This document shows, piece after piece, positions 2,321-56,100 of a stretch of 64,000 nt of DNA. Positions within the stretch are counted from its first letter, which is position 1; every line of letters begins with the position of its first letter. Below the pieces are notes generated by a model. It saw only the letters and a list, made by a program, of their open reading frames with translations. It was not told where the DNA came from and searched no databases. The position numbers and the translations under genes were made by a program. Source of the DNA: Membranipora membranacea (taxonomy: Eukaryota; Bryozoa; Gymnolaemata; Cheilostomatida; Membraniporidae); contig OU612075.1 in assembly GCA_914767715.1 (NCBI GenBank), positions 14,694,001-14,758,000 on the forward strand, given 5' to 3'.

Positions 2321-2666
2321 ATAATTTTGGGTTTTAGATTGTAGGTGGAGTCATATCATAGCCACAGTTTCCAGGCGGCAGAAAAATTGCAAAATGAGAT
2401 TTGTTATGATGATGATAATATACCGATTTTAGGCCATTTCCACCGTTGAAGACCACTATCAACCTACTAATCATAGAGCAAAACAGACTGACAATCATGC
2501 CCTGAACAGGACCAGGTCACCTTCTAATTACTCTGACCAATTTCAGACACCAGCAACACATTATGTACCGCTACAGTGGTAAGAACAGAAGTAGTATCAT
2601 TACCATAAAACGCTCAATAGAATTCGACGAACATAAAGCTTTCTTTGTTACCACCTACTGGGAAAC

Positions 2667-3735
2667 TAGTGATGGCAAATTGTCAGATTTTGGCGAGACG
2701 GGACGAGACCGAGACAGCAAGAAAATTCGGGACGAGACCGGGACGAGACCGAGACATATAATGATGCCGATAAAACATTCTTCAGATATCACAATTTAAA
2801 AGAATGGTGGATATTCATTCACTATCACTAGTGCAATCAGCTTATAGTACATTTGATTCAAGTTGTAACTTATGATCTATAGCAATAAGGATCTATGTTG
2901 AAACCAACTCCTTGTTGAAACCAAGTTTCATCAAATTCTGTCAAGTATTTATTGAATTATAGAAAGCCACACGCTCGTGCAGATTTCCACTAATTCTTGC
3001 AAATTAAATTTTGTATGAGTATCAGCCTGCCACACATGATTGTCATTGCCCAAATTCATACTCATGATTTATGGGTGTAATCCTACTGTAATCCTCCTCA
3101 GCCAATCTAAAACATAGGCCTATAGTGATAACTAAATAAAATAGTTAAACCAAGGAGAAGCTGTTTCTTCTTGTTTATTATACCAACCAGTCCAGTGATT
3201 CAGCTTCTGGATATGCTTAGGCTCAACTATCTCCTCATATTTATACAATTTGATACCCCATTAATCATTGTATCCCTTCTCCCTCTTGCCCCAGGTCCAA
3301 ATCAATGAGAAAGCTCCACATTGATTGATCATCCATTCCATCTTTTTAACAGAAGTTGTTTACATAGATATGGCCTTGACTTATCAATCAAAACAGACAG
3401 CCAATCAATCAAATCTGACAGCCAATCAGATAACATTTCCGTTAAATAATTGCAGCAAAAGCATGACTAAAAACTATCATTCCATTATATTATAGTCAGA
3501 ATTTCATGTGATATCATATAATAACCGTGGTGTAGTGGGTAAGAGCATGGACTGCTGATCACTAGGTCACTGGTTCGAGTCTGGGTGAAGGCAATGTCTT
3601 GACCAGCTACTACCATTTATAATGCCAGTAGTCTCGACCTGTAGTAAGAGTTGTCTGTCTCGACGAGACGAGATACTGTCTCGAGGAGACAAGTCTCGCG
3701 AGACCGGGAATTGTCCCGTCTCGTTGCCATCACTA
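2667..3735. mobile_element. Non-autonomous hAT-like DNA element with exact 8-bp target duplication
   Basis: The ends are inverted: tagtgatggcaa at the left and ttgccatcacta at the right. An identical 8-bp sequence, tgggaaac, sits directly outside each end (2659-2666 and 3736-3743). An 8-bp duplication is the hAT hallmark. Just inside both ends are runs of an inverted GGGACGAGACC / GGTCTCGtCgag motif (2696-2756 and 3650-3722), giving GC-rich subterminal repeats. No transposase frame is present, so the element would have needed a partner for mobility. The exact target duplication suggests a fairly recent insertion. A tRNA-like segment lies inside. Confidence 0.75.
3534..3600 (+). repeat. tRNA-like segment (SINE head or tRNA relic)
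   Basis: Contains an A-box-like gtagtgggtaagagc and a B-box-like ggttcgagtct at tRNA-like spacing, with a D-arm and T-arm look. A clean acceptor stem is not evident, so this is more likely a tRNA-derived SINE head or tRNA relic than a working tRNA. It lies wholly inside the hAT-like element at 2667-3735. Confidence 0.45.
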
Positions 3736-7113: not shown

Positions 7114-8019
7114 TCATGTAGGAGTGTTTTCAGTTGACCTGATTTTGTTCTTGCAAAGTATCGAGAGGAAAGCTGCTTTGAAATCTGAGATTGTTGATAC
7201 GTAGACAAAGAAGTTGACACCACTGCTTAAAGTGAAGATGACGGAACATGTGAATGTGAACCACAAGTGTTGTTTGTGTGGTACCAGGATCGCCATCGCA
7301 AGTCGCACTACAGTAGGTAGCAAAAACAAATAATACATAAAAACAGTCACTATAACTGTTCTGGTTGAACTTAACAGTCTCTTTCTTGATAGACCTTTTA
7401 GCTTTGCTACACTTTTCAACATAAATACATTTGTCACTGTATTAACCAGCAGAGGTACGGCACCAAAAAACACAATAGTAACAATAACACCAACATTAGA
7501 ACTGTTATTGCTACTAAAAACACAATTGGGAATGTAAGGATCAAACTCAAAGGTTATCAACTTTAAAAAGGCTGACAATATGTTGAGTATTACTGGCAGC
7601 AAGTTGCACAATACAATTATGCTAGCCACTATGTGTTTAGACAGCTGGTTGCTAACAAACACACGATACTTGAGTGGGTAAGCGACAGAGACCCATCGAT
7701 CCATGCCCATTGCAATATGGAGAGTGGTTCTTATCTCCAGAGAAGAGGTTGAAACTATCCCAAGCAGCATACATATGCTGTCATTAATCCATAACTCCCC
7801 TCTTGCGATTGTCACAACCCCAGCCGTAAATGGAATCAGCACAGTCAAATCCGACATTGCCAGACCAAGCATGAAGTAATGCTGTATATGCAATTTCCTC
7901 AACCTCTTCAATGTAGCAATGACTAGTATGTTAGTTATAAGAATATCAATATACACTAGCAGAAAAACTAATATTAATTCAGAATGAAGTGGTGTCTTGA
8001 CTAGGACCAAGCCCTCCAT
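7114..8019 (-). CDS. Rhodopsin-class G-protein-coupled receptor, orphan, intronless
   Basis: A single exon of 301 residues with seven hydrophobic spans. TM1 is about residues 14-36. TM2 carries LAMSD with Asp56. Cys83 before TM3 and Cys166 in the second extracellular loop can form the class A disulphide. The end of TM3 reads DRW (107-109) in place of DRY. TM6 has Pro235 but no CWxP. TM7 has NFFVY (269-273) where NPxxY is usual. A longer open frame runs up to 8121 without an ATG. I chose the first ATG at 8019 because it leaves a normal short N-terminus, and the pseudogene copy keeps this segment. The ligand is unknown. It is expected in the plasma membrane, signalling through heterotrimeric G proteins. 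A broken duplicate lies at 16758-17640. Confidence 0.85.
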   Translation of the reverse strand: MEGLVLVKTPLHSELILVFLLVYIDILITNILVIATLKRLRKLHIQHYFMLGLAMSDLTVLIPFTAGVVTIARGELWINDSICMLLGIVSTSSLEIRTTLHIAMGMDRWVSVAYPLKYRVFVSNQLSKHIVASIIVLCNLLPVILNILSAFLKLITFEFDPYIPNCVFSSNNSSNVGVIVTIVFFGAVPLLVNTVTNVFMLKSVAKLKGLSRKRLLSSTRTVIVTVFMYYLFLLPTVVRLAMAILVPHKQHLWFTFTCSVIFTLSSGVNFFVYVSTISDFKAAFLSILCKNKIRSTENTPT

Positions 8020-10264
8020 TGCTCTAGGTTTTCGCTGATTAAAGTAACACACTTCAATCGCTCCATAAGTTGAGTATGAAACACTGTTTAACCTAGTGAC
8101 ATCAGCACCGATAATAGCCAACGCTCCTCTAAGCCAGATAATTTTAATTCAATTGCAATGTGATTTCATGCGATTCTGTTTATGCATATAGTCGATATTT
8201 ATCAGACAGTGTGCTCCCGCATCAGTTTGTATTTGTGAATTTGAATTTCTGCTATCCATTGTTATTATCTGTTTCATCCTGACAACAGATATAGATAAGG
8301 AAGATCATATTGATTCCTGAGAGTAAATGTCCGGCAGGGGAGGAAGTTTAATCTATATTGCAAGCCCAGAGATGTCAGAATATTCAACCTGCTCTAGTTT
8401 CGTCCAGACAACCACAACAGAAACCGTTGTGATCATAAGTAACCAAAAAAAAATGAAATCAACTTTTCCTTTGATTGTGTCTTTTGATTATTTTGGATAA
8501 GGGTTGTAGTTCCTAGAACAATGGAAACCAAACTAATCCCGAGCTCGACGGTGTTAATTTGACTTCTGCATCTGACTTAGGCAAAGTGATAATAAACCTT
8601 TATTAATACTGCTGAAGCGCCTCAGAAACGTAATGGAATTTTGAGTGCATGGCCTCAAGTAGTTTTACTAGGTCGATTTGGTTCCACTGTGACCAAAATA
8701 TCTTTAAAAGATTATTGCCTAAAATTTCTTTTTAGGCTAAATTAGCCTCCTTCTACATTAGGTTAAGCATACATAGCAAAATTAACAGTCGTTGAAATAC
8801 CATATAGATAGAAGCAAACCTTGCCCAAATAAAAAACTTGGCCCCCAATACAAACCTAAGCCCGAATTATTATGTTTGGCCGATTTAGCATTGCCCTTAA
8901 TACAAAACTAGGCCGAAAGTAGTAAAACCTCGCCCCAAATACAAAATCGATACAAATTTTGGTATGCTATTTGAAATAGCTTAAAGCCAACCAATAAGTC
9001 CCGCTTATAATGGGTCTGCAATCAACTCTCCACATGCACACACACCCAAAGTGTTTAGTTTTTTTGAGCTAACAGTGAGAGAAAGTTGAGCTCCACTATT
9101 CGATTAAGACTGATTCCCTGGCCCACACTCGACACCTAATCACAATGCGTGGACGTTCGGTTTATGTTTGGGGAATTGTGATAGCTTGGAGGTAGTACAC
9201 TCTGAGCGAGAATTAAATATTGATCTCCGATCAAGGGGCGCCGAGAATGTTCCTATCAGATTATTCAGCACCAATACTGAGGAGTGTCACTCTTTGTGTT
9301 CATTCCAGCTACCAGAAACTGCCATGCAAATGCATTTATTAATTTTATCTGATTGCTGCATGTAACTGACATGTGCATTATAACTCTAACACCTACATTT
9401 TATCCAAGCCGGTTGTATAAAAACCAGTAATTTCGGTTAAAACAATCTACAATGATATTACCATGGTTTTCAATACCAAATGCTAGTCTATTCCAGATAT
9501 TGGACATCTTTTTTCGGAAGGAAAAGTGGTAGAGAGGGACAACAGCCTAACAACGGCTATGGGGTCACTGCTTCAGCTCAGGTAGTTACTAATTCCTCTG
9601 AGTAGATTAGGCCAATGGGTAAATGGCCTATAATTGAGAATCAAATTCATTTCGCACCTCGTAATACCTAGGATAGAGAAATTAGACAGGAGCGATAATG
9701 TAGAGCAATTCCATCATGGGAGAACATTTTCATATTACATATGAAATAACCTTGACAGCAAAATAAAAAATATGTACTGAAAGCTTGATTATGGAAAAAT
9801 TTGTCCCCTTTTAGTAACCATGAACCCCCCTTGTAATGTTTAAGGGCAGCATACAAATATTTATTACACTTTTAGTGGATTAAATGTAACGTGCTTTTCA
9901 CTTTTGGTGTGGAATTTGACCCCAGGATACTTGGCTATAAAGATCCTAGCTTGCTAAATTTTCATGAGGTGCAGATTCTAACCAATAATTCTTACGACAA
10001 AATTGACTCTTAGTGCAAAAGATAGTGATCGCCAAATAAAGGGACTGTCTTGATTATTACCTTCTATCTTAGGCTGCTTATGAGTCATTCGATATTGAAT
10101 AATTTGAAATGATTATCAGGCATAAGATATTCAGGACTAAGAGTGGTTTTCACTTATATCAGGGCTTGCAAGTCTATAAACAGCGAAATCAACACCATCA
10201 CCAATGCCAAAAGAGGGGGCAGAGGGGGACACTGAAGTCAAGAAGAAGCCAAATGTAGTGTTAA
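8020..10264. other. No gene recognised
   Basis: Intergenic. Bases 8815-8950 hold a degenerate local repetition of a c-ccc-aatacaaa-cta-gcc motif, about four poor copies. Otherwise I see nothing. Confidence 0.45.
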
Positions 10265-28333: not shown

Positions 28334-31300
28334 TCAGGCACATTTTAACTTCTCCCCAAAACTTTCCAAGTATCCCACAATATCGGGCTCACTGACTTCT
28401 TTTATGGTTGACAACTGTGTAAATTTGATATGGGCCTCATCTTGATAGAGTAATACTAGCTTGCCTAGATTTCCTAGCTGATCAGGACGAGATAGAGCTC
28501 GGTGCCTGACCCTGGAAGTGGGGAACTTATATGATACGGGTACATTTGATTCGTTGTAAAAGAATGATTTTATTTCCTCAAATATATTGCAGCATTTCTC
28601 ATTCTCATGCCACTGCCTGCATTTTACTAGGAAATCCTGGTTGTGCTCCAAAAAATTCAGCAGGGCATTAGGATCTCTGTTATGTGATGTGAACTCTAGA
28701 AGTTGATCGGGCTTCTCAGGTTTCAACAAATTGCCTCTAGCAAGCACCATTGGTTTTATATCCAAATATGCATCTAGTATTTGATGCTTAGCTATGGACT
28801 TTAAAGCATTAGGCTTGTGTTCCTCACTCTGTTTTCTCTCTAGCCCAACCAAAGAATTGGCATATAGATTTTCCCATGTACTTTCAATGTTCATTTTGAT
28901 TTCATGAGAATTTACAAATACTGTTTTGCTGTGCCAGCTGTTGAAAGGCTCACGGTAGCTAAACGAAAGCGGGTGACCCAGCTTTTGTTCATTGCCAACA
29001 GCTAACACAACAACGGTTGTACTCTCTGGTCTTCCCTCAAGTATCTTGATGCTCTTAGTCATACCCTTTACTCCCCGTTTCCTTTTCTTCACTTGAGCCA
29101 GTTTGGTTTTGACACAGTGAACGCTTATCATGACCCGATTTAAGTCATTATCCCTCTTCTCCGCGGCTGAGTTAGTCTCATAGCTTCTTACATCTACAAG
29201 ATGCTCTGGTACTGGTTCAGCCAGCATTTTCAGTTGATCTGGTGTAAGCTGTAAAGAAGTATCATATCAATTCAAATGACAGGCCATACCAGGTAACATA
29301 ATTCAGAACATGTATTATAATACATTTGAATACAAAATTTCAAGCTGTTCTGAATAGGCACTAAATTAGGCGTTAGGGGCTTATGTAAAATGTGACAGGA
29401 CTGTTATATGTGCTGTAGGGCCCGCATCAGTGTGTCCTGCCAATGTTCTGCAACATTGATGCATTTGTTTGGGACACCTAGGATGTTGTGTGAGCGTTGC
29501 ATTGGACTGAGTTCCTAAAATATGTCTTAGTACAATATGTGGGCTTCACAATCAGAATTGTAGAGAAGGGAAATTATTAGGAAAACGATTTTACCTGACT
29601 CTCTGTGGCTTTGTGGAATTCGACATTAACAGTGGGAGCTAATTTTGAGGTGATTAGTGCCTTTGGCATAACATCTCGTAGTAGCTTCAACCTTACTATA
29701 CTGTCATAGTCTTGGCAGAGGTCTTCCAACCCGAGGTTTGCAGTGAGACCGTTTCTTGCCATGCACCACTGTGTTCCTGCACTGGGGTTGAAGTTGTTGT
29801 TTATCAGTACTCTTAGTTTTGAGTTGAAAATGGGCACCGCTGTAACTTTCCATCCAGGTAAATCATCATCATATCTGGCAATACCTGTTTGAGGGAATAG
29901 ATTGTTAAGAATCTGTAAATTCTGCAGCCTCAAACATCTTTTTATGATTTCTTTCCAAAGTACATATGTCAAATGTTCATGCAAACTTCATAAATAATAG
30001 AGATTTCTTACCATGACCATACCATGCACCAGCCAGCAGATAGACGCATCTCTTCAGTTGTCCATTTGCAAGTCGCGACACAGATGTTATTGCGGAGACA
30101 GCATCATCAAGAGAGGCACTGTTATCCTCACCGTTGTGTATGTCATGAAACATTTCACACTGAGCTCTGTCCAGGTCCTCCATGGGATTCTTTTTCTGAA
30201 ACATAATTGTTATAGTTTTGCTATATTCTATGATCTGTGAACAGAATGTGAATTCATACAATTTCAGCCCGTTGGACCTATGCATAGTAATGGAAAGCCC
30301 AAATTTTTATCATGAATGCCCAGTTGAATCTAAAGCATACTAACGAGTAAATCTATCTCAGCACTCCCCACGGCTTGTGCAGTTGCATACTCTCCCAACA
30401 TCGGTGATCTTGGCTCATGAAGGGTGATTCTGAGCTCAGGCATGATGGTGTTCTGGTAGACGTACGACTCCCTACCATCTTCATCCACCTTCACCACCGG
30501 TGACATCACATTGGAAATGATAAAGTTCCCATCATATGTTGAACTTGGGAACGAAGAACTGACCACAAAGGCAGGAGAGTTATTAAGAATGCGCTTCCTT
30601 TTTTCTGCATTCTCCAAAGAATTTAGCCCTGACAGAGATTTTGTTGTTATCTCGTCATACAAAGCGTCATTGCCAACATGGTGTGTTTGGATTTCTGACC
30701 AGTACTTATCCGTTTGCTTGAGAATCGGCTGCTTCAGGCGACCAGCAATAAGATGCAGCAGATAATGTGGAATTCCTTCGCCATCCGCAGCTGCCATGGC
30801 AATAACTGTGACACATCTCTCATCCTCATGAACATCCAAGTGGTCTATTAATTCTACTATGTGATGATTGTCACTACCTTCACTGGAGCTCTGAAAGAAG
30901 CATCAAAAAGGCAATGGATCGATCAATGTATGCTCCTGCCTATCCAATAATGTGATAGCTGCTTCAGGTCTAGGATATTAGACAAGCTACATCCAAATCT
31001 GTAATTTTATATCGATGGAAATAAGGCATTTGATATACAATTTACAACCACATCATTTCCTCTATTCAACCTGACTTGTCCAATCAATAATTTTTAGGTG
31101 TTCAAATTAATGGCTTTCCTATTGAATCTGGGTCGGCTCAGTCCTAAGTATTTATAATGATATTTCTGTACACAGCTATGGTGATGATCCTCTCTCAGTG
31201 CCAACTAACCTCATAATCGCTAAAGCAGCCAGTGACTTCATCAACGACCTTCTCATTAAGGCGGATTTGAAAGTTTGAAGTATAGCCTTCACCTGCTTCC

Positions 31301-34300
31301 TGAAGATTGAAGCTCATTGGGTTGTTTGGACATATGAATGACAACTTTCCCTGGCATTCTGTTGGACTGACAAGCTGTGGAGTGCTATCAGATGTATTGG
31401 GTGGCAAGGATAGGATTATCATCTGAGGGGTATGGAATTGTTCACAGTGAAGTTGCATGATGAGCCTTTCGAGTTCTATATTCATAATCTTCACTCTGGT
31501 TATCTGCCATGAGTGGTCTTTGCCGACGTTGAAGTAATGGTTCGTGGCAGTTATGTTGCCTCGTACCAACAACAATAGGTGAAAGACCTGTTCATGAGGG
31601 CCTTCCTTGACCATGCAGGTAAGCAATATGCAGCTGACAGCAGTAGATTTAATATCTTCAAGAGAATCAATGCCGAAGGTCCTCAGTACATTGAACACAC
31701 GGTCTTGACGAATCTTGATTTGAACCTGGAATAAAAACAGTACACTTTTGTAATTACGAGCAAACGCATTGATTTATTCTGGAAGACGCATAGACATCAG
31801 AGCCTTTGGAATCTGAATTTGAATACTGATAAAGTTCCTTACTTTGGTGTCTTCAGACGACGTGATACTCAAAGTTGGAAATTAAGATGGTATTCTTTTA
31901 GCTGAGAAACAATCACACAGTTTTGTACAGCTCACAACAAGAACAGTTAGCCCTGACACAAAATACAGGTATCAATACTCCCATGCCCAAATTCCATGGT
32001 GATATAAACAACTATGCAAAAATCTTATATTTACTATTATTATTATTTACATCATAATATTTGCATATTTACATTTATAATAAAGGCAATTCATTTTCAT
32101 ACCAGTTGATTCGGCTCATTCTGGATGATTGCCAGTCCTAAGTCCACCTGAGAAAGCGCCTGCAGAATATTACTCAGATCCACCATAGTACGGCTTAGTT
32201 CATCAGAAGCTGTTATTCTACAAAATGTATAGCACAGGTTTGATTGCTTTTTCTTAACAATACCAAATTTTACTGGTAAAAATATTTGCTGTCTATACAT
32301 GCCAAAATGCAACACATCTACTTGGCTTGACGATTACCAATAAAAGTAGAACTCACTTCGATGCAAACGGCTCTGCACTATCCTTGAAGCTTCCAATATT
32401 TTGTTGCTCTGGCCTGTCAGGTTCCTAAGAAAGAAAATATAAAAGCAAAAGTATTTCACACCCAAAAGACAGAGTAAGTACTGGCAAAAATCTGCTGGTC
32501 AATTGTATGTAAAAGGTAGCTTTAATTTATCATAGTTACACCATTAAGTGTGGAGGCAAGAAAAGCAAATTCGCTTTCCTTCCGAAAATGACTTTATTTA
32601 ATGTGATCAACCAGTTCCTAGGTGAATGTGGTCAGGTTGTAATGGAAGCCTGACCTGTTTACTAGTTTTCTCATCTCTGCACTTAATAACAGCCAGTCCA
32701 GTTCTTGAACATCCTCTATCTGAAAACTGTATTGTGTGACTGGGCGCTTGAAAGATAAAATATATCAAATTTATACGCGACAAATTTTGTGTCATCACAG
32801 ATATAAATACTTTGAGGTGGTCTGATGCCTTTTTAAAACATTAAAGCACAAATTTACTGGTTTCACAAAGAAGGGATTTCCTTTTATCAATTTCAGTGGT
32901 TTCATCTTTCAGCTTCATACCATTGATCTACATCGTGCTTGGCAAGAGGGGACAATTTCTTATTCTATCTATCCAGAAGAGGATTTTTCACAGTAAAGTA
33001 TTGCGCAACTACAGTAGAACTATCTGTCTGACTTTGAAACTTGTTGGTTGTTGTGGGGCATGGCTAGTCATCACATCAGTGTATGATACACTTTGCCATG
33101 CATCATTCAATACCTTACCTGTCAGTAAGGATGGTAAGACTAGATATTTGTCTAATGTCGATTCACATAATACATGAACTTGGCTGAAATCATTCTCATC
33201 TGTCATATGAGATGCGATAGAGGTGAAAATTGAAAATACATCTTTGTCTCCATCAGTCTTTCGAAATTGATTTGCAACATAATGTACAAAGGAGGCCTCT
33301 TCAGTCTCTGTGTCATTCACAGTTGCCAGTAGCAGCACAGTGTTTGGTCGGAAGATCTGTCTCTCTGTTTCCGAAGCAAATATTTTGTCGCTCGGCAAGC
33401 TTTCAACATCAACGCTTAGCGCGGTCCTATTTGGTTTCCTCTCATTACATGTTTGTACAATCAAAATCTACAAAATATTTGCACCAGTCACAGTGATGTT
33501 CGATTTTGAAAGGGTGTTGTAAAATAATTTAATATAATGAAGTTCACACCAATATAATAATATAATATTAATACACACTTTATTTGCTATCCAGTGCCAC
33601 TTTCAGGTCAACGAGAAAAATATGCTGATATATGTTATAATTCATCCATTTAACGCACCCTTGTATAAATTCAGGATGATCTGATAGAGATCTCCTGTAT
33701 AATAATGACAAAATAAAGAAACCTACCAGTGGAGTACTGTCTGGGAGAACAGTTGAGATTTTCTTTAAAATATGGTCGGCATTGGAACTTCGGTTGAATT
33801 CTCCAGCAAGATCATGCTGATCATTGACAACAAATGCTATCAGCAGAGAACATTCATCATTTGGGTCCTTTATCAGAAGATCAGAGAATGGGGCTATGTT
33901 TCCATTCATATCAGCTCTTATAACTCTATCCTGTATGAGCTGTCCGAGTGCATGCTCCACGTCATCACACCTTGAACCCTTGTCTTTGTCAACATGTATT
34001 AAAGCATGTATATTTTGCTATAATGAGACAAAAAAAGACAACCAAGTCACGAATGTTCTTATTTAAGCATTAAATATACCTCTAAACTCTTCTGAATCTG
34101 CATGGTCACTACTCACTAATAAAATTTGGAAAAAAGTATCTCAAATAGCGAAAAAAGATAATTTCATTAATCAGCCAAATCCGAAGGATTTTTATACACA
34201 TTGTTGTGTTTGGTTAGCCCGATACACTGAGTAATTCATCAATCGATGCTTCAAAGGTTTCACATGTTCGCAAATTCATCAATGACTGGCAGGATAAAAT

Positions 34301-37300
34301 TCTTGGAAAAATCAGTTAGCATTGCAGTAATTTTGACTAAAAATCACTGCTCTGAAAATGGCATAGGCCTACTTGGCACATTGGAAAATTTTATGATGTT
34401 TTTGAAAGCAGCGTTTTTCTTGATGAATTCTAAGTTTTATTCTATATACTTACTAGTGGGATGGAGTAGAATCTTCGTTGCTCAGTTTCATCCTTGATAT
34501 TAGTTTTAGCCTCATAAAAGCTTGCTGCTCTCCCTATTAAAACAGGATGTTGCGTTAAATGAGTTGGTTGCAGATCACAACAAGATGTGGCCATTCTGTG
34601 CATGCACAGCTCTGCAGCATGAGCTGATCTCTGCAAAATTGGGAGTCAGAAACAATCTGATTGGCTACCTCCTTCTTGCATTGTTGTGATGAATATTTGT
34701 TTAGTAGTATCTTCCAATAATAAACATTAGCGTTAGTAGTCTTTGAAAAATCTGTAAAATAGCAAATTGTCCACTCCTCTGCCCTACAGCAAAATAAAAA
34801 TCAAGAGAAATGTTTTTCTTCCTAGTTATATTTGAATTTCCGGCCCTGTATTGCTATAACAGCGAGAGAGATGAGGTACATACTCAGCAATGACTTGCAC
34901 ATGATTGCACTTACGCATGATACAATGATGCCTACCTATTTCAGAGGTGAATGAAGGAAGGACAAGTCGCTTTGTGAGAGTACTTTGCAGCACTGGGCGT
35001 TGATCTGACTTCAGACATCTATGACGTGACGCATCATACAAGGCCAATGCAGTCATAACAAGTTCATATACATCTCTTTCACCATCTGCATGTGTGAGCA
35101 TCGACATGGCAAGCTGTTTGGAGGCTTCTCCAAGATTATCTTCCACACTCACTAATAGAGTATCTGGTCTATACAAAGTCGCATGTGACTTTCCTGATAC
35201 TTGGGCTACCATAACCTTGGTGCAGTGAAATAATTTATTATCATAATAGGAATATGGATGGCCCCTCCAATATTAGAGTATGGTAAATGAATCAGGTATG
35301 ACAACCATAGACCTACTAATAAATATCTGTCACCTGTCTAGGTTTATTATTAGTAGGTCTATGATGACAACTGATACATTGAAAAATTAATAAATTTCAA
35401 TTTTGGATTATGATCGGGAATGATCAAAACAGGTCAGACAACCAACTGCAAAGTTGCCTGGGTTTGGGGTAATAGCATTTCATTATCAACTGCATTCTGA
35501 TCTGATGTTGTTGAGAATGTGGCTTTTAATGAGATGCCACTACCATAAACCTGGGAAACGTTTGAGAAAGTGATAAGATTTACAATCAGATGTAAGTAAC
35601 AAGCCCACTTGCAGTTTGATATCATATAGAATGTTTTTTCGTGCCTATGTAAGCAATGATGAAATATTAACTTACGAGTGGAAGGTTTGTTTCGAGAGAA
35701 GAAACCAGGTGGTTTGTTAGGAGTTCAAGTATTGCCCTCTCTTGACTAGCAGCTTCATGCTCTTTGCTGCCAACTCTATTGGGACATAGTTTACAGATGA
35801 CGAACACCATCGAGCTGTCACATGGGATGGCGTGAATGATTCTCTTGATGGACATCACCAAAAGATCTTTGTCACTTGATTCCAACCTGCATATTCGAGT
35901 ATTGAAACCGCAGTTGGCCAGAAGTTGCTTTACATCTTCATCATAGGAACTTTCAAGGTCGTGGTCACAAGCATCCCTTGTGTACATGATCAATGCATAT
36001 TTCTGGGTTCCCTCTCTGCTGAATGGGATGATATATTGGTTGCTGATTGAGGACAAGTGTCTGACTTGCTCGTGAGACATTGGCCGCCTTTGTATTCCTT
36101 CTATGATAACTTGGCGCACTGTAATATGAAGAATTCAATGTCTGTCGCCAAGTATTCAAGGTCTGTCTCAGTTAGAAAACTGAGAAAAAAAAGTTGCCTT
36201 AAAGCATGGGGCTCCCTGCACACAATGCTGTCTGCAATTTCTTCGTGAAAATAGAGCAATCTTCAATTTTAAAACTCTATTCTTCAAAATAAATTCTTCA
36301 AAAACAACTGGACTCGACATAAAACTGCTGTACTAAAATGCCTGATAAAATTGAGCCAACAAGTTAATTAGTTAATGAATGTGATCATTTTTTTTCTAGA
36401 CAAACAATGCACCTGGTGGCCTCGAACCCAGGATCCTGTGATCCAAAATCAGTAACACTGATTGGTTTTGGTTTGTTGTTGTGTGGAGTTGTCTGTTCAA
36501 ACCAAAAGAACCCAACCTGAGTAGATAACTCCAAGTTGTTTGACTGAATCAAGTCTACTTGAAATGGGAAATCTTCTATTGATTTTCATTTAAATCTTTT
36601 CTTCAATATTTTAAAACACTCAATCTTCAATCTTCAGTAAAATACTGGGGCTCACGGGATCAAAAATTAATTGGTATTTGCTGGTGACGCGCAAGACAAT
36701 TGGCTGATAAATTTTATGCCCGCCTTTTCCCGCCTCTTCCAGCCTAGGCCACGTTGCTTTTCGGTTTCGTATGATAATACTTGAAGATTTTCTAAAGTAG
36801 TTAAGTATGTTACATTAAAATCTGTGCTTTGCAGATACATATAAATAAAAAGAAATATTGTGAGTGAAATCAAATGAATTTCACATTTTTCTGAGGGTGT
36901 ATCATACAACCCTCCATCAGTACATTCAATTTTCAATTTATGTGGCCTTTTATACCTGCTCTTTACCTTTAAAATTTGCCCACAGACCAAGTATTTTATA
37001 GTCAGGCAGTAAGTACTGCTGTACTTATGTGGAATCCAAGGGTGAAAAAATGAAAAGCTTCCCTGGTAAAACTTATTGAAACCAAAAGAAATTGTTACTT
37101 TTGTCAAGGTCACTTATAAAGCTGAGTTCACCCACAATGTTAATAGATGAGGTCATCTGATGCCTCATGATATGATAATGCAATAATATTTATTAGCCAA
37201 TTTTGTGTAGAATTTTTACATTTCCAGTGATATATCTTAGAGTGTCTAGGAAAGCAAACAACAACCAGTGTTCATAGCAAAGCTTTGCCATTGCAATGAA

Positions 37301-40300
37301 CAAAAAATGTAAACTTTTTTGCACAAGGCCATTATTGAATGATGTAACCTTATTTGAAGTGCGAAAATCTAGGGTCTAGAAGGTCTAGAGTATGTTATCT
37401 CCCCCGTAACGGGTTAGCACTAAAATATCTTTGACTATTCTACTGTTGTCCAATACTGTTTCTTGATAACTTATAGTGAAAGTAGGTCAGCCTTGTAACT
37501 GTTCTAGGTAAGCCCGGGCTAGGCTTACTGCTATACTGTAAGTGGATCATCATTTAAATGTGAATCCGTGACAGGGGAGATAACATACTCTAGACCAGCT
37601 GTGGGCAACCTGCGGCCTTTTTGCCAGTGCGGCCTAATGGGTAATATTTTGCGGGCTAATTGTGGCCTCATGCCTAAGAAAGTCATTACGCATCAATTTT
37701 GATTCCTCTTTCATTATGTGGAGAACCAAGTATGTATAGCGCCTGTACAATATATTTAAAAAATATTGGCAATTCCGTACTATGCAAATAGCAAAGCTTC
37801 CCCAGCCACTTTACACAAAATCATCATAACTGTAGCACTGGTGTCAACGACTATCTTAAGTTGTTTTTCTTTCAAAAATAGCACAAAACAGTGACCTTTG
37901 GATGTTAAAATTACAAAGTTCTCTACCATTATAGTTATTAGTATTTTTTGCAAAACAGTCATTTTGGACGAAAGGCAGATTTGTATCAAAAAGTCTCTTT
38001 GTTACAAGTGCTCCTGCATTATGCTTGAAATGTTCAATATTGCCTTTCATTTCACAACCATTTGCAGGAGAATTCTCCCTTGCAGGAGGGTGGGCGCTGT
38101 AAGATGAAAATTATGACAGGGCGCGGAAAATCTAAAAACAATTTTCGCTCCGCGGAAAAAACTTTATTCTCCATCACAACAGTCCCGTCATGATCTTTTT
38201 ACACTTTAACCCCTGGGATGGCGCTACAACACCCCTCTCACACCCGCCCTGCCCTTTGTCATACACATGAAACACAGAGATACAGACACGCATAAAATCA
38301 AATCATGAGGTAAAATGACGTCACAAAACTCCAAAAGATTAGATGAACCAGTATTTCTGCTGAGTTCTTGCAACATAATGCAGTCTTTGCACAAATCTGT
38401 TTTAGTATTTACAAAATAGGAAGCGCCAAAATTGTCACTCCAGTTCCAATTTTATCCCTGAAAGATATGCTGCAGCCTTTTGAGTTGAGCCTGCGTAATA
38501 TGGGGCCTTTTTCAAAAAAAGGTTGCCCACCCATGCTCTAGACCCTTCTAGACCCTGGATTTTCGCACTTTAAATTAGGTTACATCATTCAATAATGTCC
38601 TTGTGCGAAAAGATTTACTATTTTTGTTCATTGCAATGGCAAAGCTTTAATATGAACACTGGTTGTTTTTTGCTTTCCTAGATACTTTAAAGAGAAGCGA
38701 CAGATCATTGGGCTTATACAGCACAATCAAGTATACACCACTTATTTTTAATGGCCCGAGGAGGAGCATGTATTTTTTTTTTTAATAATTTTCATGAAAT
38801 AAGTTCAGCAAAGCGCCCTGCGTGACTATATGATTTTTTGGTCTGTTGGTATTCTTTAAGGTTGGAGCTGCCATATTGGCGCCAGGTTCCTTCAGCTGGC
38901 TAGCAGGTCCGAGCACACCTTGGGCTTCAACAAAGTCAAGTTGTCAGTAGACTGCAGCAGGTTTAGAATATAGAGGGAGGGCAGACGCTCTCACCACTAC
39001 TTCCTTCCTACTAGATAAAATATATTACTAACGAGTTCATGAGGTTTGACATCAATATGCCCAGTGCTGGCCTGGAGAAAATGTTGCTGCAAAACTTAAC
39101 TCGGAATCTGTGCCTTATAGATCAGATGCTAACACTATTTGGTATCACAAGTTGCTATCTTGTACATTTTACTGATCCGCAAGGAACAATAGGGAAATTT
39201 GAGTGCGTTTTGTGAGCCTGTAAAATGTTTACATATTCAATAGGTAATTTCTTTAAAGGATCAGTTCTATTAGAAAAGTAGATGCATAATCCCAGTAAAT
39301 AAAACATTGCGAGTTCATAGAGCAAATATAAAATACAAAAAAATAAAAATTGGGGAAAATTGCATTTTAGTTTTTTTTAAATATATCAGGGAGTTTTCCC
39401 TTCCTGAATACACTTTCTCAGCTTATAGCCAGAGGTCTATCTATCACATCTTACAATATGCTATTTTCATCATGCCTATCACAAAGTTGTGAAATGAAAA
39501 ACAAACAAGCGTGTGGCCAGCCTTTATATCATTATTATATAAAGACTGGATTAGTCATAGGAATTTACAAACATAGCAAACTGTACATTATACCATTTAT
39601 AATCCTTGATGATACTGTTATCAAAGATTGTAAATACATTGCTGTTATTGAGGTATCCCCATCAATGACTTCCCCATCAGTTACACAAAAGGAAGCATGT
39701 TGTATGACAAAGCTGCACACATGAAAGTAAAAGTTGTGCCAAGCCTTCTCATCTTTACCGAAAGTTGTATTGGGCCGTGCCTTCTAAATAGAATTCAAAG
39801 CATGGCTTTTATTGTGGACACGGAAGCAAGTGGAGATGTAGTGATATGGGTTACTCTTAGATCTTAGTAATTTATTTAAACCCTGTGTACTAATATTGGG
39901 ATATTGTTACCTAGTTTTTGTCACATCACATGATGGTAGGGCGCAGAATTTTTAACTGCCAACAATCCCTAAGCACGCCAGTTGACCGTATACAATGTGG
40001 CAATACATTGTGTTACCTTTGACATCATCTAAGGCGTTTTGCCCATACTGTTGTTTGTAGGACAGCCATGAATTTGTCTTAAACCTCAGAGTGGAGACAG
40101 TTTAGGATGAACCAGGGACGCTCAAAGATGTTCGAAACTCAAACAAATATATTGAACTGAGCAACATTCCTATTTATGACAACATTGAAGTTTGTACAGC
40201 TCAGCGGGGCTGAATTTGGTTTCTTACAGTGCGGCATAAAATCCATCGTTGTATTGCATCTCTGCAGGATAAGTAATATGTGTGTGTGCATGGGAGGGCT

Positions 40301-43300
40301 AGGCTAATTTATGTGAAACACCAAATTTGTCCTACTTTTATCATTTCATGAGCTGGCAAAGTAAGCAACTCGATTTTGCGATGATCCCACCAGATACAGA
40401 TTACCTATGGCTAATTACTGTAACTGTAATAACATTGTATTGTATGAGCAATACCTATTGAATTACTATTATGCCTAAATAGTTGACTGCAATATCATAA
40501 CCCTTTACAAATTGTAAACCATTGAATGTTTCGTAAACATTGAGGGTATCAAATATTTGGGCTGAGGGTACAGGTTGGGTGGGTACATTGATCATAGTTA
40601 GGATCTGAAGCTTGGATCATAGTGGATCATAGTGGTCAGGTGGAGGCAATAAATCACTATGATCCGCTATGATCCCAATTTTTAGACTTTGCAGCAGTTT
40701 TGCTGACATTTGGTCCACAGGCTGTTTAATTTCATATGCCCTAACGACTTTTCAGACTGAGTTCTAATAAACCATACCACACATGGCCTAGTAGGACTGA
40801 CATTTTCCTTTCTAAAAAATTCAATAAACATTTTTAAGTTTGCAAACATGTTAAAATCAAGGCCTACATTCCACATTATAGTGACATACTAAAAAAAATA
40901 AGGCTATTTTCAAATTTCAACAGCGCGTTGTTGCTGGAAGAAGGTGAAACTGCATGAGATGGGACAAGCGGTCTCACACAGTTGTTGCAAACAGTCAGGG
41001 AATTACATTATATATTTTTAACTAAATTCTTCTTCCCTCAATAATCCTGGCAAATATTTTACCTAATGCTTAGCAGGCGCTGGCCACTCGAGATATAGTC
41101 AGCTTTAATATGTTGTGACCACTGATATTCATGAATTATGGATTAGGGGAATATGTATGACCCTGAACAAGCATATTGTAATTTATGTATGATTGCTCAA
41201 AACAATTTCCCATCTTTGATTGGTCCAAAAGTTGAGTAATGCTACAGCCGACTCCTTTTAAACATCTGTCAAGTAGCTTGCCTGAGTATTTAAAGGTCAT
41301 TACTGGGATGTCAGTCAATGTAGAACGTTACAGTTGCCAGAATTTTAGCTAGATCTAATTACTGCCACAAAGTTATATGTTGATGTAGTTTCTCCACAAA
41401 TAGCCATACTTTGTATTTCACCCCTAATCCATGAATTCATATCAAAGGTAGTGACTGCTACAAAATTATGCATCATTGATCACCAAATAGACTGAATCAA
41501 GGGTTCTTTAATACTGCACATTATTCATTAAGAAAGCAAAAACCAACCACTGTTCATATCAAAGCTTTCCCATAGTAATGAACAAAAAAAGTTATTTTTC
41601 GCAGAAGGACAATATTGAACGATGTTACCTATTTTATAAAGCAAAAACCCAGGGTCGAGAAGGGTCTAGAGTATGTTATCTCTCCTGCTACAGATTAATA
41701 CTAAAATATCTTTGACTACACTACCTTTGACCAATACTGTTTTTTTGATTATTTCTTGTATAATTAGAGCAGCCTTGTAACTTTCCTAGGCAAGCCGGGA
41801 CTAGGCTTACTGTTATTTTGTCAGTGGATCATCATTAAGCGTGAATCTGTTACAGGGGAGATAACATACTCTAGACCCTTCTAGACCCTGTGTTTTCGCA
41901 CTTTGAAATAGATTACATCATTCAATAATGTCCTCGTGCGAGTAAATTTAGTTTTTGTTCATTGCTAGGAGAAAGCATTGATATGAACAGCGGCTGTTTT
42001 TTTGATTTCCTAAACACTTTAAAATTGTGATTTTAAGCTGCTTCCACTTACTTTTGTTCAACTCTTTAGATGAAACAAGATTGTAGTTTTAGCTCCATTT
42101 GCTTGTGTTGAGATCTAAATTTTCATGGTGTTCTATAGAGTTTTTACAGCGAAACATTTCACCTAATTTCCTAATTCATCTAAGTGTTTAAATCAAAACA
42201 TAACAAACAGTGATCGTCAGTAATGATCCCGAATGCAATTAAACCGATAAGTCAACTCACCATAGTTGTTTGTTTCTTTTTCTGCCAGTTGAATTTCAAC
42301 TTGAACAATACAATGGAGTAGCTGAGAATGTCCACTTACTGCAAGTAGTAATATCCCCTCACCCACGCCAAGACCCTTCAAATAAGCCAGCCTGTCAGCG
42401 TGTTTTGACTCATGGTGTATGAGAATCCTGTACCATGCTGAGGAATCTAGTATTTTGTTAATAATATTTACCACCTCCATCTGATTTTCTTCTAAAGCAA
42501 GGTCCAAAGGGGTGGAGCCATATTCATCAGTCTCCGAAAGAAGGTGCAAGAACTGCTTGCAGTTCACTGAGTTGCCTATTGCTTCTACAACTGCTGAGTG
42601 GCCTCCTAATGCCGATAGGTGGAGAGGTGTGGCTCTCCTTTTGTTCTTTTCCTGGAGAAGGTCGTACCACTGACTAGAGTTTACAGTACCTTCCATAAGT
42701 TTCAGTATTTCTACAAATCCGTTCAAGGCAGCCAAGTGCACCGGGCTGGCAGCACTATTTGGTTCCGAATCTAGTCTCCGTAGAAGTTCCAAACTTTTAT
42801 TGCATGACAGTGTCTCGCGCATCACACGTAAGATGCAGAATGCAACGTCTCTATTGCCGGTGCGACAAGCCACATGGAGTGGTGTTTGGCTGAATGAGGT
42901 TTCTGCAGCCAACAGTTTGTAACAGCGATCTGCGTTGAGCTTAGTAATGTGATCTAAATGCATAAAGTTCTCTGAACATATAAGTGCGCTTGCCACTTTA
43001 CTGGCTGTTATCTTGTATTGCTCATCACTGCTCTTGATCGCAGCCATATGAAGGGCAGTACACCCTTCTGGATCCTTAGTCAGGAGTAGCTGCATTCTCT
43101 TATCCGGAGTGATACTAGAGAGTATAATCTGGACCGTTTTGTGGTTGTGTCTCCCAACTGCCAAATGTAGTGGCGTCTTTTGCTGGTGATTTCTCATTGT
43201 CAACAGTTTGAAACGGATATCAACATTGAAACCCTCCAAAACTGCGTTCATCATGTCCCCATCTGTAGCTTCTGCTGCACAGTGAATGGAAAGTGGACGA

Positions 43301-43476
43301 TCTAGGTATCTAGACTGTAACAGTTTTTGCCGTTTTTCCGGTTTGAGTGAAGAAAGAATGTATCGTACCTTGTCTAGCGTGTGGGCTTCTATTGCCCTGT
43401 TGACAAGGATGCACACCTGATCTTCATCGTCAGGAAATGTATAGCGCGACATATTAATTGTGTTGCCCATTTTCAT
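28334..43476 (-). CDS. Ankyrin-repeat protein with tandem degenerate caspase-like domains (15 exons)
   Basis: Exons in order: 43476-42261, 36118-35676, 35550-35443, 35215-34936, 34611-34454, 34017-33727, 33467-33119, 32719-32655, 32424-32357, 32217-32103, 31725-31210, 30890-30345, 30195-30012, 29884-29595, 29248-28334. All phases agree and no stop interrupts, giving about 1,847 residues. Residues 1-405 hold about eight ankyrin repeats (KTPLHLAV, CTALHMAA, QTPLHVAC, ATPLHLSA, STPLDLAL). Exons 2-4 form a caspase-like unit: KYALIMYT, then DEDVKQLLANCGF (p20), later STLTKRLVLP (p10 end). Exons 6-7 form another: HALIHVDKDKGS, DDVEHALGQLI, ILIVQTCNE and STLDKYLVLP. The p20 His is absent in both. 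Exons 11-12 look like further units; exons 13-15 are unassigned. ATG43476 or ATG43470 (MGN, possible myristoylation) may start it. Function unknown; a catalytically dead caspase-fold scaffold is inferred. Weakest joins: the exon 3 donor (GTTGTC) and the exon 5 acceptor. Confidence 0.75.
34590..34690 (-). repeat. Dispersed repeat overlapping exon 5 acceptor (partner at 46245-46335)
   Basis: On the minus strand this reads ggtagccaatcagat, then attttgcagagatcagctca, then cagagctg-gcatgc-cagaa. The same blocks occur on the plus strand at 46245-46335. The exon 5 acceptor (ctgcag at 34617-34612) and the first ~20 bases of that exon lie inside the repeat. Confidence 0.6.
35306..35363. repeat. Small hairpin in an intron
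   Basis: catagacctactaataaa and its inverted copy tttattattagtaggtctatg (one small bulge) flank a short loop within the intron between exons 3 and 4 of the ankyrin-pseudocaspase gene. Confidence 0.7.
37237..38692. mobile_element. Palindromic-ended element, copy A, split by a hAT element
   Basis: Inverted ends of about 160 bp (agtgtctaggaaagcaaac... at the left, its complement ...ttgctttcctagatactttaa at the right). The core carries agcccgggctaggcttactg and gtggatcatcattta. Without the nested insertion it would be about 0.5 kb, the size of copy B. There is no coding frame. It lies in the 6.1-kb first intron of the ankyrin-pseudocaspase gene. Confidence 0.8.
37596..38535. mobile_element. Nested non-autonomous hAT element, 940 bp
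   Basis: Ends read cagctgtgggcaacctgcgg and, inverted, catgggtgggcaacctttt. An exact 8-bp duplication, ctctagac, flanks it (37588-37595 and 38536-38543). The gtgggcaacctgcggcc end resembles widespread animal hAT families. The interior has only short frames, so it is non-autonomous. The uninterrupted sister copy at 41526-42023 shows the empty site. Confidence 0.85.
38693..41525. other. Intron 1 sequence, no exon recognised
   Basis: Intronic stretch between two copies of the palindromic-ended element. Bases 40595-40680 repeat a ggatcatagt-gatc motif in both orientations (ttggatcatagtggatcatagtgg, later atcactatgatccgctatgatcc). No exon-like frame is seen. Confidence 0.45.
41526..42023. mobile_element. 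Palindromic-ended element, copy B, uninterrupted
   Basis: The same family and orientation as copy A, 498 bp, with inverted ends of about 160 bp (41530-41690 against 41850-42020). Both arms carry ctctagacccttctagaccctg or its complement. It represents the state of copy A before the hAT insertion. Confidence 0.8.
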
Positions 43477-53100: not shown

Positions 53101-56100
53101 TAATAATTTTTTCTTTAAATTATGTCTCCTGTTCGACATTAAAATGCACTCAATGATGCTGACTTAATTTCTATCGAAGTCATTGTTGATCATTGCCAAT
53201 TTGAGTGTTAGGTATAAATGAAGAGGTGGCATCGTGTCTTTTCATATAATGTTTTCTGTTTTATTGAATCGTAGGCCAAACTATGTAATGACCCATAATC
53301 ATGGCTTTGATCACTACATACCACTGTGATAATAGATAGTAACACAATGACAGTATGGGCTTATACCTCTCCAGTACATAATAATGGGGATTAGCCTGCA
53401 CACACTACTCATTTTTAAATGTGGGACACTTGAGTTTAAATCCTAATACTCTAGATGAGTTAAAATTGGCTAGCAGTTATCAAAGCTAGTTTGAAGTGAC
53501 TAATATTTGGCGTGCTAAGATTGGAGCGTATTATCAAGTGGGGAGGGTGTGTAAATCATAGCTGGCCACAAATTCCATTATGTCGATCGCGTGCAAAAAG
53601 GTGGAAATTTACTTCTACAAAACTCTTCTACGTATCCTGAGTTTTTTCCCTGACCATGTTCATATAATGGAAAAAACACTGACCATTAGCAACATATAAG
53701 TTCAGATGGTATATTGCTATGTCACAGGTGATGAAGCTTGTATACTATGCATCGTTACTTGGAGGAAGAGTCGATCCGGGTGATGTGATAGCAAAAGAAA
53801 AAGAATACAAGGAACAACTCACTAAAAGCATTCAAGAATTTATTCAAAGTATGTAGTTATCATTTTTAGAGCTGATATTGAGTCATTAGTATTTGTTCAA
53901 GAGAAATTAAACTCTATGGTATAAATATACAGTCTCGTATCTATGTTGGATTGAGTTAAGGCAAGAGTTTTTGTAGTAAAAAGTAAAGAATTAGAAAATT
54001 GATTTCATGTACTCGACGAAAATAAGCCTCAGGGATTAGGACCAATCACAGAATCTTGCTTGTAATAACTAATATGCTTTCTAGTTATCTCACCCAACAT
54101 GATTCCTTTCTAATCTTGTCTTGTTTTCCTGGTCAATGTCAAAAGGGATTTGAAATTGCCCTGAATGTTGGCCTAAATCTGAGACTGTTGTACGGGATGA
54201 ATAGGGCCAAAGACTCAAAATTCACGCTCCAATATGTTTCACTCAAGCTCAGTCTTAAACTCCACAGAACAATCTCTGCATCCCAATTAATTCTTCAAAT
54301 AGAAAGGTTGTTGAGAATTTCACTGACTGGTTTGCCACGAACTTAGTACATAGTTCTTAAATCTCGGACTGCAAAACTTGTGACTAACAAATATAGTATT
54401 CGTACTTCCACATTGTCTATCACTTAAAGGTGCTACTGAAAATCGTAATACAAAGGAGCGTACAGAGACGAGAGAAGACCCCCTGATATCAGCACTTGGT
54501 ATACGCCCCATAGACTGTAGAGAAGCTCTCATACCCAAACAATCATTCATTAACGATATGGTCAACGACCATCTAGAGATGGACAAAGATTTCACATTCT
54601 ACAGAGCAACTCAAGATAAAGTAAGAGTCGTCATCACATCAACTGGGTCTGATTTTGTTCTCTAATATTGGCCAACGCGCATCAATCTGTCTAAATTCAG
54701 AAAAAGACAAGCATTTGAAGCAAGCTAAGGGTTTATCATGAAATTTCTATTTGCGAAACAATGAAAGGGTAAGACACTATGACAGATTACACCTTAGGTG
54801 AAGATTGGATTTTCGAAATTCAAAACTCAAAATATATCCAAATACATGTCTTGATAAATCCTGCAAGCTTATATGTAAATTGATTAATGGAGTATCTTTC
54901 TTTTCAGTTCTCTTTCATTCGACATCCATTCATACTTAATACTCCTACGAAGAATATGGCTATGTACTACGACAACAGAATACGAATGATCAGTGAGAGA
55001 CGTTCTGCTATCATATCCAGTATTATACACGGGGGAGGTCAGCCGATGCCCTATCTTAGACTGAGAGTTAGGAGAGATCATCTTATAGACGATGCCTTGG
55101 TTGGGGTAAGCAGCATTTCTCAGTCTATGGAACGGGAGAACACCTTGTGATTTTAACCAACATTTAAAAAGAGCCACATCATGATGTCAAACAAGCGAAT
55201 CAATATTTATAATATATACATATCAATTTTATTAGCTGATTAAGTCATAAATGCCCCGTCTGAGTTAGACAGATCATTTTGTATACTGTTTCAAATTGAG
55301 CGATATTTTGATTTTTTAACCCAATAGCGGATATGATATAATTTGGGTGGTGTAAAAATTGTCGTTACCAATATTGTTTATGATTGTGTTCTACGCTTTG
55401 CTAAATAACTGGGAGTTGTCTACTTAATGTCAATGAGAGGATAATGTTTAAGATGAGTCCTACCAATTTTCTTTGAAGTCGTTTGATGGGTTATTAGGGC
55501 AAGTTTTACGCCTAAAGTTGATATTGACAGTTGGAGATGGTGTTTATGGATAATCCAGATGATCTTAAGAAGCAGTTGTACGTGGAGTTTGAGGGTGAAC
55601 AGGGTATAGATGAAGGTGGTGTGTCTAAGGAGTTCTTCCAGCTGATTGTTGAAGAGATTTTCAACCCTGACTTTGGTGAGTTACTCTCTATTTATATTAG
55701 AGAAGTCATGAAGTTACTTAAAAGTCATACAGTCATACAATCATCGATTCTGAAATTTCCTCATTCAAGCGAAACGCACAATTTGCCAGGTCATTTGCAA
55801 GCGATAGAAAATAAACATCACTTTGAAACTGGATAAGTTTTAGGGTGAAGCAACTGCTCAAATACAAGTTGTACCCGACCAATCATTTTTGTATATACTT
55901 CTTCTTGAACTTTGATATAATGTGAAACTCCTACTTTTGTGCAAAATAACGCCAATGAATTAAAATGAACGGTGTTGACATTCTCCTATATAACGCCCTG
56001 ACATCCATCAGCTGTTATGTAGGTTAATTTTGTTCCAGGTATGTTTATCCATGATGCGGATACAAGACAATTCTGGTTTAACCCGGATTCTTATGAAAAT

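Follow-up and report, generated by a model that had tools for sequence, protein, structure and literature searches.

Caspases form dimers, each half consisting of a p20-p10 unit, with an arginine of the p10 part lining the aspartate pocket. cFLIP and caspase-12 have one caspase-like domain each, accompanied in cFLIP by two death effector domains. Pseudocaspases and lineage-specific caspase fusions are already known (PMC11121540, PMC2575513). Two pseudocaspases named in a review, cFLIP and caspase-12, are vertebrate, and cFLIP-L, an inactive homologue of caspase-8, forms a productive heterodimer with caspase-8 (PMC11121540). Hybrid caspases (LRR-caspase and TNFR-caspase) are found in amphioxus (PMC2575513), and immune domain shuffling in marine animals has been described (PMC8195603). 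The subject of this report is a gene on the minus strand of the window, a stretch of 64,000 nucleotides from the bryozoan Membranipora membranacea (C11:14694001-14758000). Its predicted product joins ankyrin repeats (residues 1-403) to two tandem degenerate caspase units, U1 (residues 404-644) and U2 (residues 672-884), and to a C-terminal module (residues 968-1783), a combination that looks like a real protein design, so far undescribed.

Like cFLIP-L and caspase-12, the predicted protein would be a caspase homologue without catalysis and a likely regulator of active relatives (PMC11121540). It differs from cFLIP in its ankyrin repeats, two caspase-like domains and extra module, and it gives no direct sequence match to caspase-3. 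With the amphioxus hybrid caspases it shares a lineage-specific fusion of sensor-type domains to caspase domains; those proteins differ in keeping QACxG, and the main text of the paper on them does not contain the word 'ankyrin' (PMC2575513). The reading adopted here, which we place only a little above an even chance, is that of a pseudoprotease regulator, resembling cFLIP in action and not in membership.

The genome searched was the 339 Mb assembly in 18 contigs. At least 145 matches to the Pfam family C14 were found, many clustered on contigs C1, C3, C5, C9 and C10, which constitutes a large caspase expansion. Short loci came with 20 of these matches, and 15 stretches at 13 places were fetched. 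Eight same-genome C14 domains (L021, L023, L024a, L026, L030, L033, L034 and L035) were used as the reference set. All eight loci have C14 above the Pfam cut-off and the His motif; QxC was read in five, the piece not being found in L021, L030 and L034. Fetched C14 domains outside the reference profile include L025 (a near-copy of L024), L027, L028, L031 and L032.

A profile of the eight reference domains scored U1 at 30.2 and U2 at 58.8 bits, values that none of 1,000 shuffles reached in either case. Four paralogous units or parts of units scored 11.6-29.9 bits (0/1,000 shuffles in all four cases). The ankyrin and C-terminal parts were the negatives: the ankyrin part and the C-terminal pieces C1-C3 stayed at shuffle level and piece C4 reached 3.4 bits (4/1,000 shuffles as high). 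Because the Roco-caspases L033 and L035 had been noticed by eye beforehand, the profile was rebuilt without them; U1 then scored 15.5 and U2 31.4 bits (0/500 shuffles each), and seven of eight degenerate units remained at 0/500 (7.8-31.4 bits), the eighth, L041 U1, scoring 3.8 bits with 4/500. The Roco pair alone, used as a profile, recovered all eight with 0/500 shuffles as high. In the reverse direction a profile of eight degenerate units found seven of the eight reference domains at 0/500 shuffles (L023, 11/500). Profile-profile comparison matched the degenerate units to the eight reference domains at 99.5% (E 2.4e-23) and to the six non-Roco domains at 97.7% (E 1.8e-12), and the eight reference domains to caspase-3 at 99.1% (E 1.3e-18). 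With the L038 units as query, window U2 (1.3e-7) and window U1 (6.7e-4) were found, as was the p20 exon of L035 that carries SHG (2.1e-4). U1 and U2 are also similar to one another: exons 2-4 aligned with exons 5-7 give a local score of 77, compared with a mean of 35 and a maximum of 57 in 200 shuffles (z 7.1). At the level of sequence, computation shows that U1 and U2 share common descent with the C14 caspases of the same genome.

Several results weigh against this reading, and the substitution rates of the unit exons given further below belong with them. A Pfam scan gave no Peptidase_C14 match (PF00656) in the exons or in the joined U1 and U2; the same search also misses the SHG-bearing p20 exon of L035. 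A caspase-3 hidden Markov model profile scored U1 and U2 at chance level, the degenerate-unit profile scored three caspase-3 rows at chance (232/500 and 23/500 shuffles as high, one unscored), and direct profile-profile comparison of the degenerate units with caspase-3 gave 0.2%. Since the degenerate units match same-genome caspases and not caspase-3 directly, their superfamily membership rests on intermediate sequences. AlphaFold2 models were made of two contiguous pieces of the window, exon 2 (with one row) and exon 6 (with two), each folded separately. Both were poor, with mean predicted local distance difference test scores (pLDDT) of 43.6 and 43.1, and Foldseek with the low-pLDDT p20 model returned nothing at E <= 0.001; none of the 50 rows listed was a caspase. 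By eye the strands and helices follow the order of p20 and p10, in models of pLDDT only about 43. U1 and U2 may adopt the caspase fold in three dimensions. A PDB sequence search gave one chance-level match for U1 and none for U2, and a PADLOC scan of both units found nothing relevant.

The aligned catalytic His is present in none of nine degenerate units and the Cys in three of nine (window U2, L038 U1 and L041 U1), so that no unit has both; the four intact domains in the alignment hold both. Window U1 has neither residue (QVSGK at QACxG), and U2 lacks His and keeps Cys (QTCNE at QACxG). In alignments read by eye, U1 and U2 lack the p10 arginine that the eight reference domains conserve. Loss of catalytic residues from both units is thereby shown by computation, on aligned sequence.

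The gene runs from 43470 to 28334 on the minus strand and consists of 14 exons in one frame of 1,783 residues with no internal stops. All 13 introns have GT and AG, and the phases agree (1,0,1,0,0,1,0,2,0,0,0,1,0). The exons are as follows.

Exon 1, 42261-43470, minus strand: start codon and ankyrin repeats, residues 1-403 (Pfam Ank_2 1.1e-24; donor gtgagt).
Exon 2, 35676-36118, minus strand: p20-like part of U1, residues 404-551 (gene model, caspase profile, intron comparison).
Exon 3, 34936-35215, minus strand: putative active-site strand of U1 (QVSGK replaces QACxG) and p10-like part.
Exon 4, 34454-34533, minus strand: linker between U1 and U2, phase 1 in and 0 out.
Exon 5, 33727-34017, minus strand: p20-like part of U2, residues 672-768 (gene model, caspase profile, intron comparison).
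Exon 6, 33119-33467, minus strand: putative active-site strand of U2 (QTCNE) and p10-like part, residues 769-884.
Exon 7, 32655-32719, minus strand: short linker restoring the phase, one of two solutions.
Exon 8, 32357-32424, minus strand: linker (gene model).
Exon 9, 32103-32217, minus strand: linker ahead of the C-terminal module; by eye a similar open reading frame (ORF) at L037 4168-4395.
Exon 10, 31210-31725, minus strand: segment R1 of the C-terminal module, residues 968-1139 (30-41% identity, 5/5 paralogues).
Exon 11, 30345-30890, minus strand: segment R2, residues 1140-1321, the most conserved (44-58% identity, 5/5 paralogues).
Exon 12, 30012-30195, minus strand: first part of segment R3, which is matched only partly (37-63% identity, 5/5 paralogues).
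Exon 13, 29595-29884, minus strand: second part of segment R3, partial match to paralogues.
Exon 14, 28334-29248, minus strand: segment R4 and stop codon, residues 1480-1783 (34-44% identity, 5/5 paralogues).

The preliminary description had proposed 15 exons and about 1,847 residues; its single in-phase frame holds as one coherent model, with the exon number and length revised as given here. Its order of an ankyrin exon followed by two units, each with p20-like and p10-like parts in the expected sequence, was recovered. Exon 7 (32719-32655) fits because the strong donor of exon 6 (33119) ends in phase 1 and exon 8 needs a phase 0 start; the alternative, a weaker donor five bases on (33114), needs no exon 7 and yields a model of 13 exons with 1,763 residues. 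One further candidate exon, near 35550, was left out, since no good donor was found and in relatives p20 is joined directly to the strand that follows. By computation the locus is one coherent gene model, presumably expressed. That it is instead two adjacent genes, an ankyrin gene and a pseudocaspase gene, wrongly joined across intron 1 is considered, on indirect evidence, most improbable: the intron is 6.1 kb long with inverted-repeat elements, and the joined model was built from genomic sequence, but the exon phases match and an ankyrin ORF lies upstream of U1 on the same strand at both other loci examined (L042+L037 and L043+L038). The inverted-repeat elements of intron 1 occupy window positions 37237-38690 and 41538-42002 and have mutually related arms of 147 and 168 nt.

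Ankyrin families were matched by Pfam over five stretches of residues 1-403, in agreement with the repeats first noted there. No other families were met in the scan of the N-terminal exon, tandem death effector domains of the cFLIP type included, and the Pfam scan of the window protein showed neither Roc nor COR. Among five other ankyrin-type regions compared, the closest are those of L039 (1.9e-22) and L042 (2.2e-17), both of which precede the same C-terminal module as in the window gene; L030 (1.5e-9) and L043 (2.4e-9) follow, and that of L036 gave no match. The likely N-termini MGNTIN (window), MGSSNSK (L043) and MGSSESK (L036) match an N-myristoylation pattern; this applies to three of the five module genes with a likely start seen and not to L039 or L042. 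These N-termini suggest membrane attachment via N-myristoylation.

The C-terminal module (exons 10-14) recurs at five fetched paralogous loci, L036-L040, with 30-63% identity by segment, R3 partially. A query with R2 from L039 gave at least 45 genome matches at E <= 0.001, itself included. Pfam returned nothing at E <= 0.1 for R2 and R4 (six members of each scanned) and only single-member matches, none better than 0.014, for R1 (six members); R3 was scanned in the window protein. PDB profile searches with R1, R2 and R4 reached at best E 0.5. A STAT_linker match in the C-terminal part was set aside at 17.8 bits against a Pfam cut-off of 27, and the impression by eye of a single unit repeated four times in this part was dismissed, since profile-profile comparison of different segments gave at most 4.4%. 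A third or fourth caspase unit in residues 968-1783 was rejected: profile-profile comparison with caspases gave at most 1.5% in seven comparisons, and the pieces C1-C4 scored as reported above. Of the serial caspase-like modules that had been proposed behind the ankyrin repeats, two therefore stand, through same-genome relatives and not through Pfam, and the further units thought probable do not. As judged from these searches, the region is probably an undescribed lineage-specific module with tens of matches in the genome, and not a caspase unit.

The whole arrangement occurs elsewhere in the genome. At L042+L037 (C11:9.31-9.32 Mb) and L043+L038 (C11:4.37-4.38 Mb) an ankyrin ORF (Pfam), U1, U2 and the module follow each other in order on one strand, with open U exons in L038 and L042+L037. 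By computation on these predicted parts, the architecture recurs at the window and two other loci. L041 (C6:3.81-3.82 Mb) has U1, U2, reverse-transcriptase-like ORFs and a diverged R2 piece (54.6 bits, 0/1,000 shuffles). The reverse-transcriptase-like ORFs of L041, recognised by eye, lie at 2585-3727 between U2 and the module piece and suggest a transposon insertion into this paralogue. The sequence preceding the module was read at only a few of the R2 matches. In L039 ankyrin repeats and the module are present with no caspase-like ORF between them (13 ORFs, best 0.4 bits); none was found in L036 between the ankyrin-like exon, itself without a Pfam match, and the module (10 ORFs, best 1.4 bits), nor in L040 ahead of the module (38 ORFs, best 3.7 bits).

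Three further kinds of caspase gene bear on the origin of the units. L033 and L035 are Roco-caspases, in which an LRR-Roc-COR ORF is followed by C14 exons with SHG and QAC; the Roc match of L035 and the COR-A matches fall under the Pfam cut-off. L030, L034 and likely L021/L022 are ankyrin-caspases, with ankyrin repeats before a C14 domain carrying SHG. L024 (2712-5411) and its near-copy L025 (minus strand) have a Pfam-positive caspase unit (MHG, QACR) and then a degenerate second unit in which QRS replaces QAC; from order and strand the two units apparently form an intact-dead tandem in one gene. The second unit of L024 scored 22.5 bits against the profile of the eight reference domains, 49.8 bits against the degenerate profile (0/1,000 shuffles each), and 5.9 bits when the Roco pair was left out (2/1,000 shuffles as high).

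In a maximum-likelihood tree of 18 rows with midpoint root, eight degenerate units and the two Roco-caspases group together at 100/100, apart from the ankyrin-caspases, three further reference domains and caspase-3. The U1 of the window falls with the U1 units of L038 and L041 at 97/94, a placement that carries a long-branch warning. The tree does not separate U1 cleanly from U2, U1 of L042+L037 falling with the U2 rows (86/87). A phase-0 intron directly before the QACxG strand was present in all 11 units readable on both sides (nine degenerate units and the two Roco-caspases); for this comparison the donor of L024 U2 was read one codon earlier than in the script output. The ankyrin-caspases L030 and L034 have a donor at the same place. 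Of the domains compared, those of the Roco-caspases are thus closest to U1 and U2, with which they have the intron in common, but the Roco-caspases keep SHG and QAC and carry LRR-Roc-COR instead of ankyrin repeats. The ankyrin-caspases, like the window gene, have ankyrin repeats before C14, but differ in their Pfam-positive C14 with SHG, in lying on the other side of the tree and, by eye, in having no module in the fetched stretch. Because of the tree grouping the dead units appear to derive from the Roco-caspase side and not from the ankyrin-caspases; the ankyrin fusion of the window gene looks independent.

Ratios of nonsynonymous to synonymous substitution rates (dN/dS) of the U exons were about 0.70, 0.66, 1.1 and 0.5 between L038 and L041. 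Values of about 0.5-1.1 imply weak constraint or fast evolution. In the module the ratios between L036 and L038 were 0.24 for R2 and about 0.2 for R4. Because the locus pairs differ and L041 may be dying, the two sets of rates only hint at fast or relaxed evolution of the units. The contrast would suit caspase units that are decaying passengers of a domain fusion, with selection acting only on the ankyrin repeats and the module, and so would the loci L036 and L039, where the units are missing. This explanation is held to be distinctly unlikely: the U exons are open with GT and AG in the window gene and open at the two related loci, all 11 units read retain the intron before the QACxG strand, both units are kept at three module loci plus L041, and the U rates may reflect L041 as a dying copy with its reverse-transcriptase-like ORFs.

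Two other features were noted in the window. A single-exon rhodopsin-type G protein-coupled receptor is predicted at 7114-8148 on the minus strand (Pfam 7tm_1 9.1e-17), and an ORF at 55528-55836 on the plus strand, without a Pfam match, resembles by eye an exon of a HECT ubiquitin ligase.

Lost catalytic residues, a domain and splice structure kept across paralogues, and many caspase matches together fit a pseudoprotease regulator. The ankyrin part would bind or recruit a partner or ligand; the two dead units would pair, either between themselves or with active caspases encoded in this genome, and this pairing would hold back, position or tune those caspases, as cFLIP-L does with caspase-8. 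The C-terminal module would supply a function common to many loci of this genome. A cFLIP-like regulatory role is plausible, given the lost residues and the presence of caspases with catalytic motifs in the same genome; pairing with them, and a role in death or immune signalling, would follow from the analogy. Alternatively, the dead units could fold onto one another into a caspase-like dimer within the chain and act only as a structural core or adaptor that links ankyrin repeats and module, with no active caspase regulated. The presence of exactly two units in tandem, matching the dimeric build of caspases, and the occurrence of the module without units in L039 are in its favour; we hold it to be rather unlikely, and the C14 matches of the genome are possible partners that it leaves aside. 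A broader proposal, offered tentatively and judged somewhat unlikely, is a family of single-chain caspase dimers, dead-dead behind ankyrin repeats (the window and two loci) or intact-dead (L024, L025), which would form a covalent control layer over the expanded ankyrin- and Roco-sensor caspases, with the module as a new output or targeting domain.

No ankyrin protein with tandem pseudocaspase units was found in open-licence full-text literature, which does not prove absence. Protein database searches covered proteins whose length was 0.55-1.75 times that of the query and which had exact words in common with it. They gave nothing at E <= 0.001, either for the 13-exon model (residues 404-1763; 8,000 candidates scored) or for the ankyrin-caspase L030 (C14 part; 1,751 candidates). 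A control search with caspase-3 gave 1,975 matches; the database therefore includes animals. On these searches the layout of ankyrin repeats and tandem pseudocaspase units with an undescribed module attached appears not to have been described.

If true, the recurring combination of ankyrin repeats, twin pseudocaspase units and module would offer a natural experiment on whether regulation is a general role of dead caspase folds, and on whether a covalent dimer can replace pairing of the cFLIP type, in a genome with many caspases and an intact-dead tandem. The finding also exposes the undescribed module itself, with its tens of genome matches.

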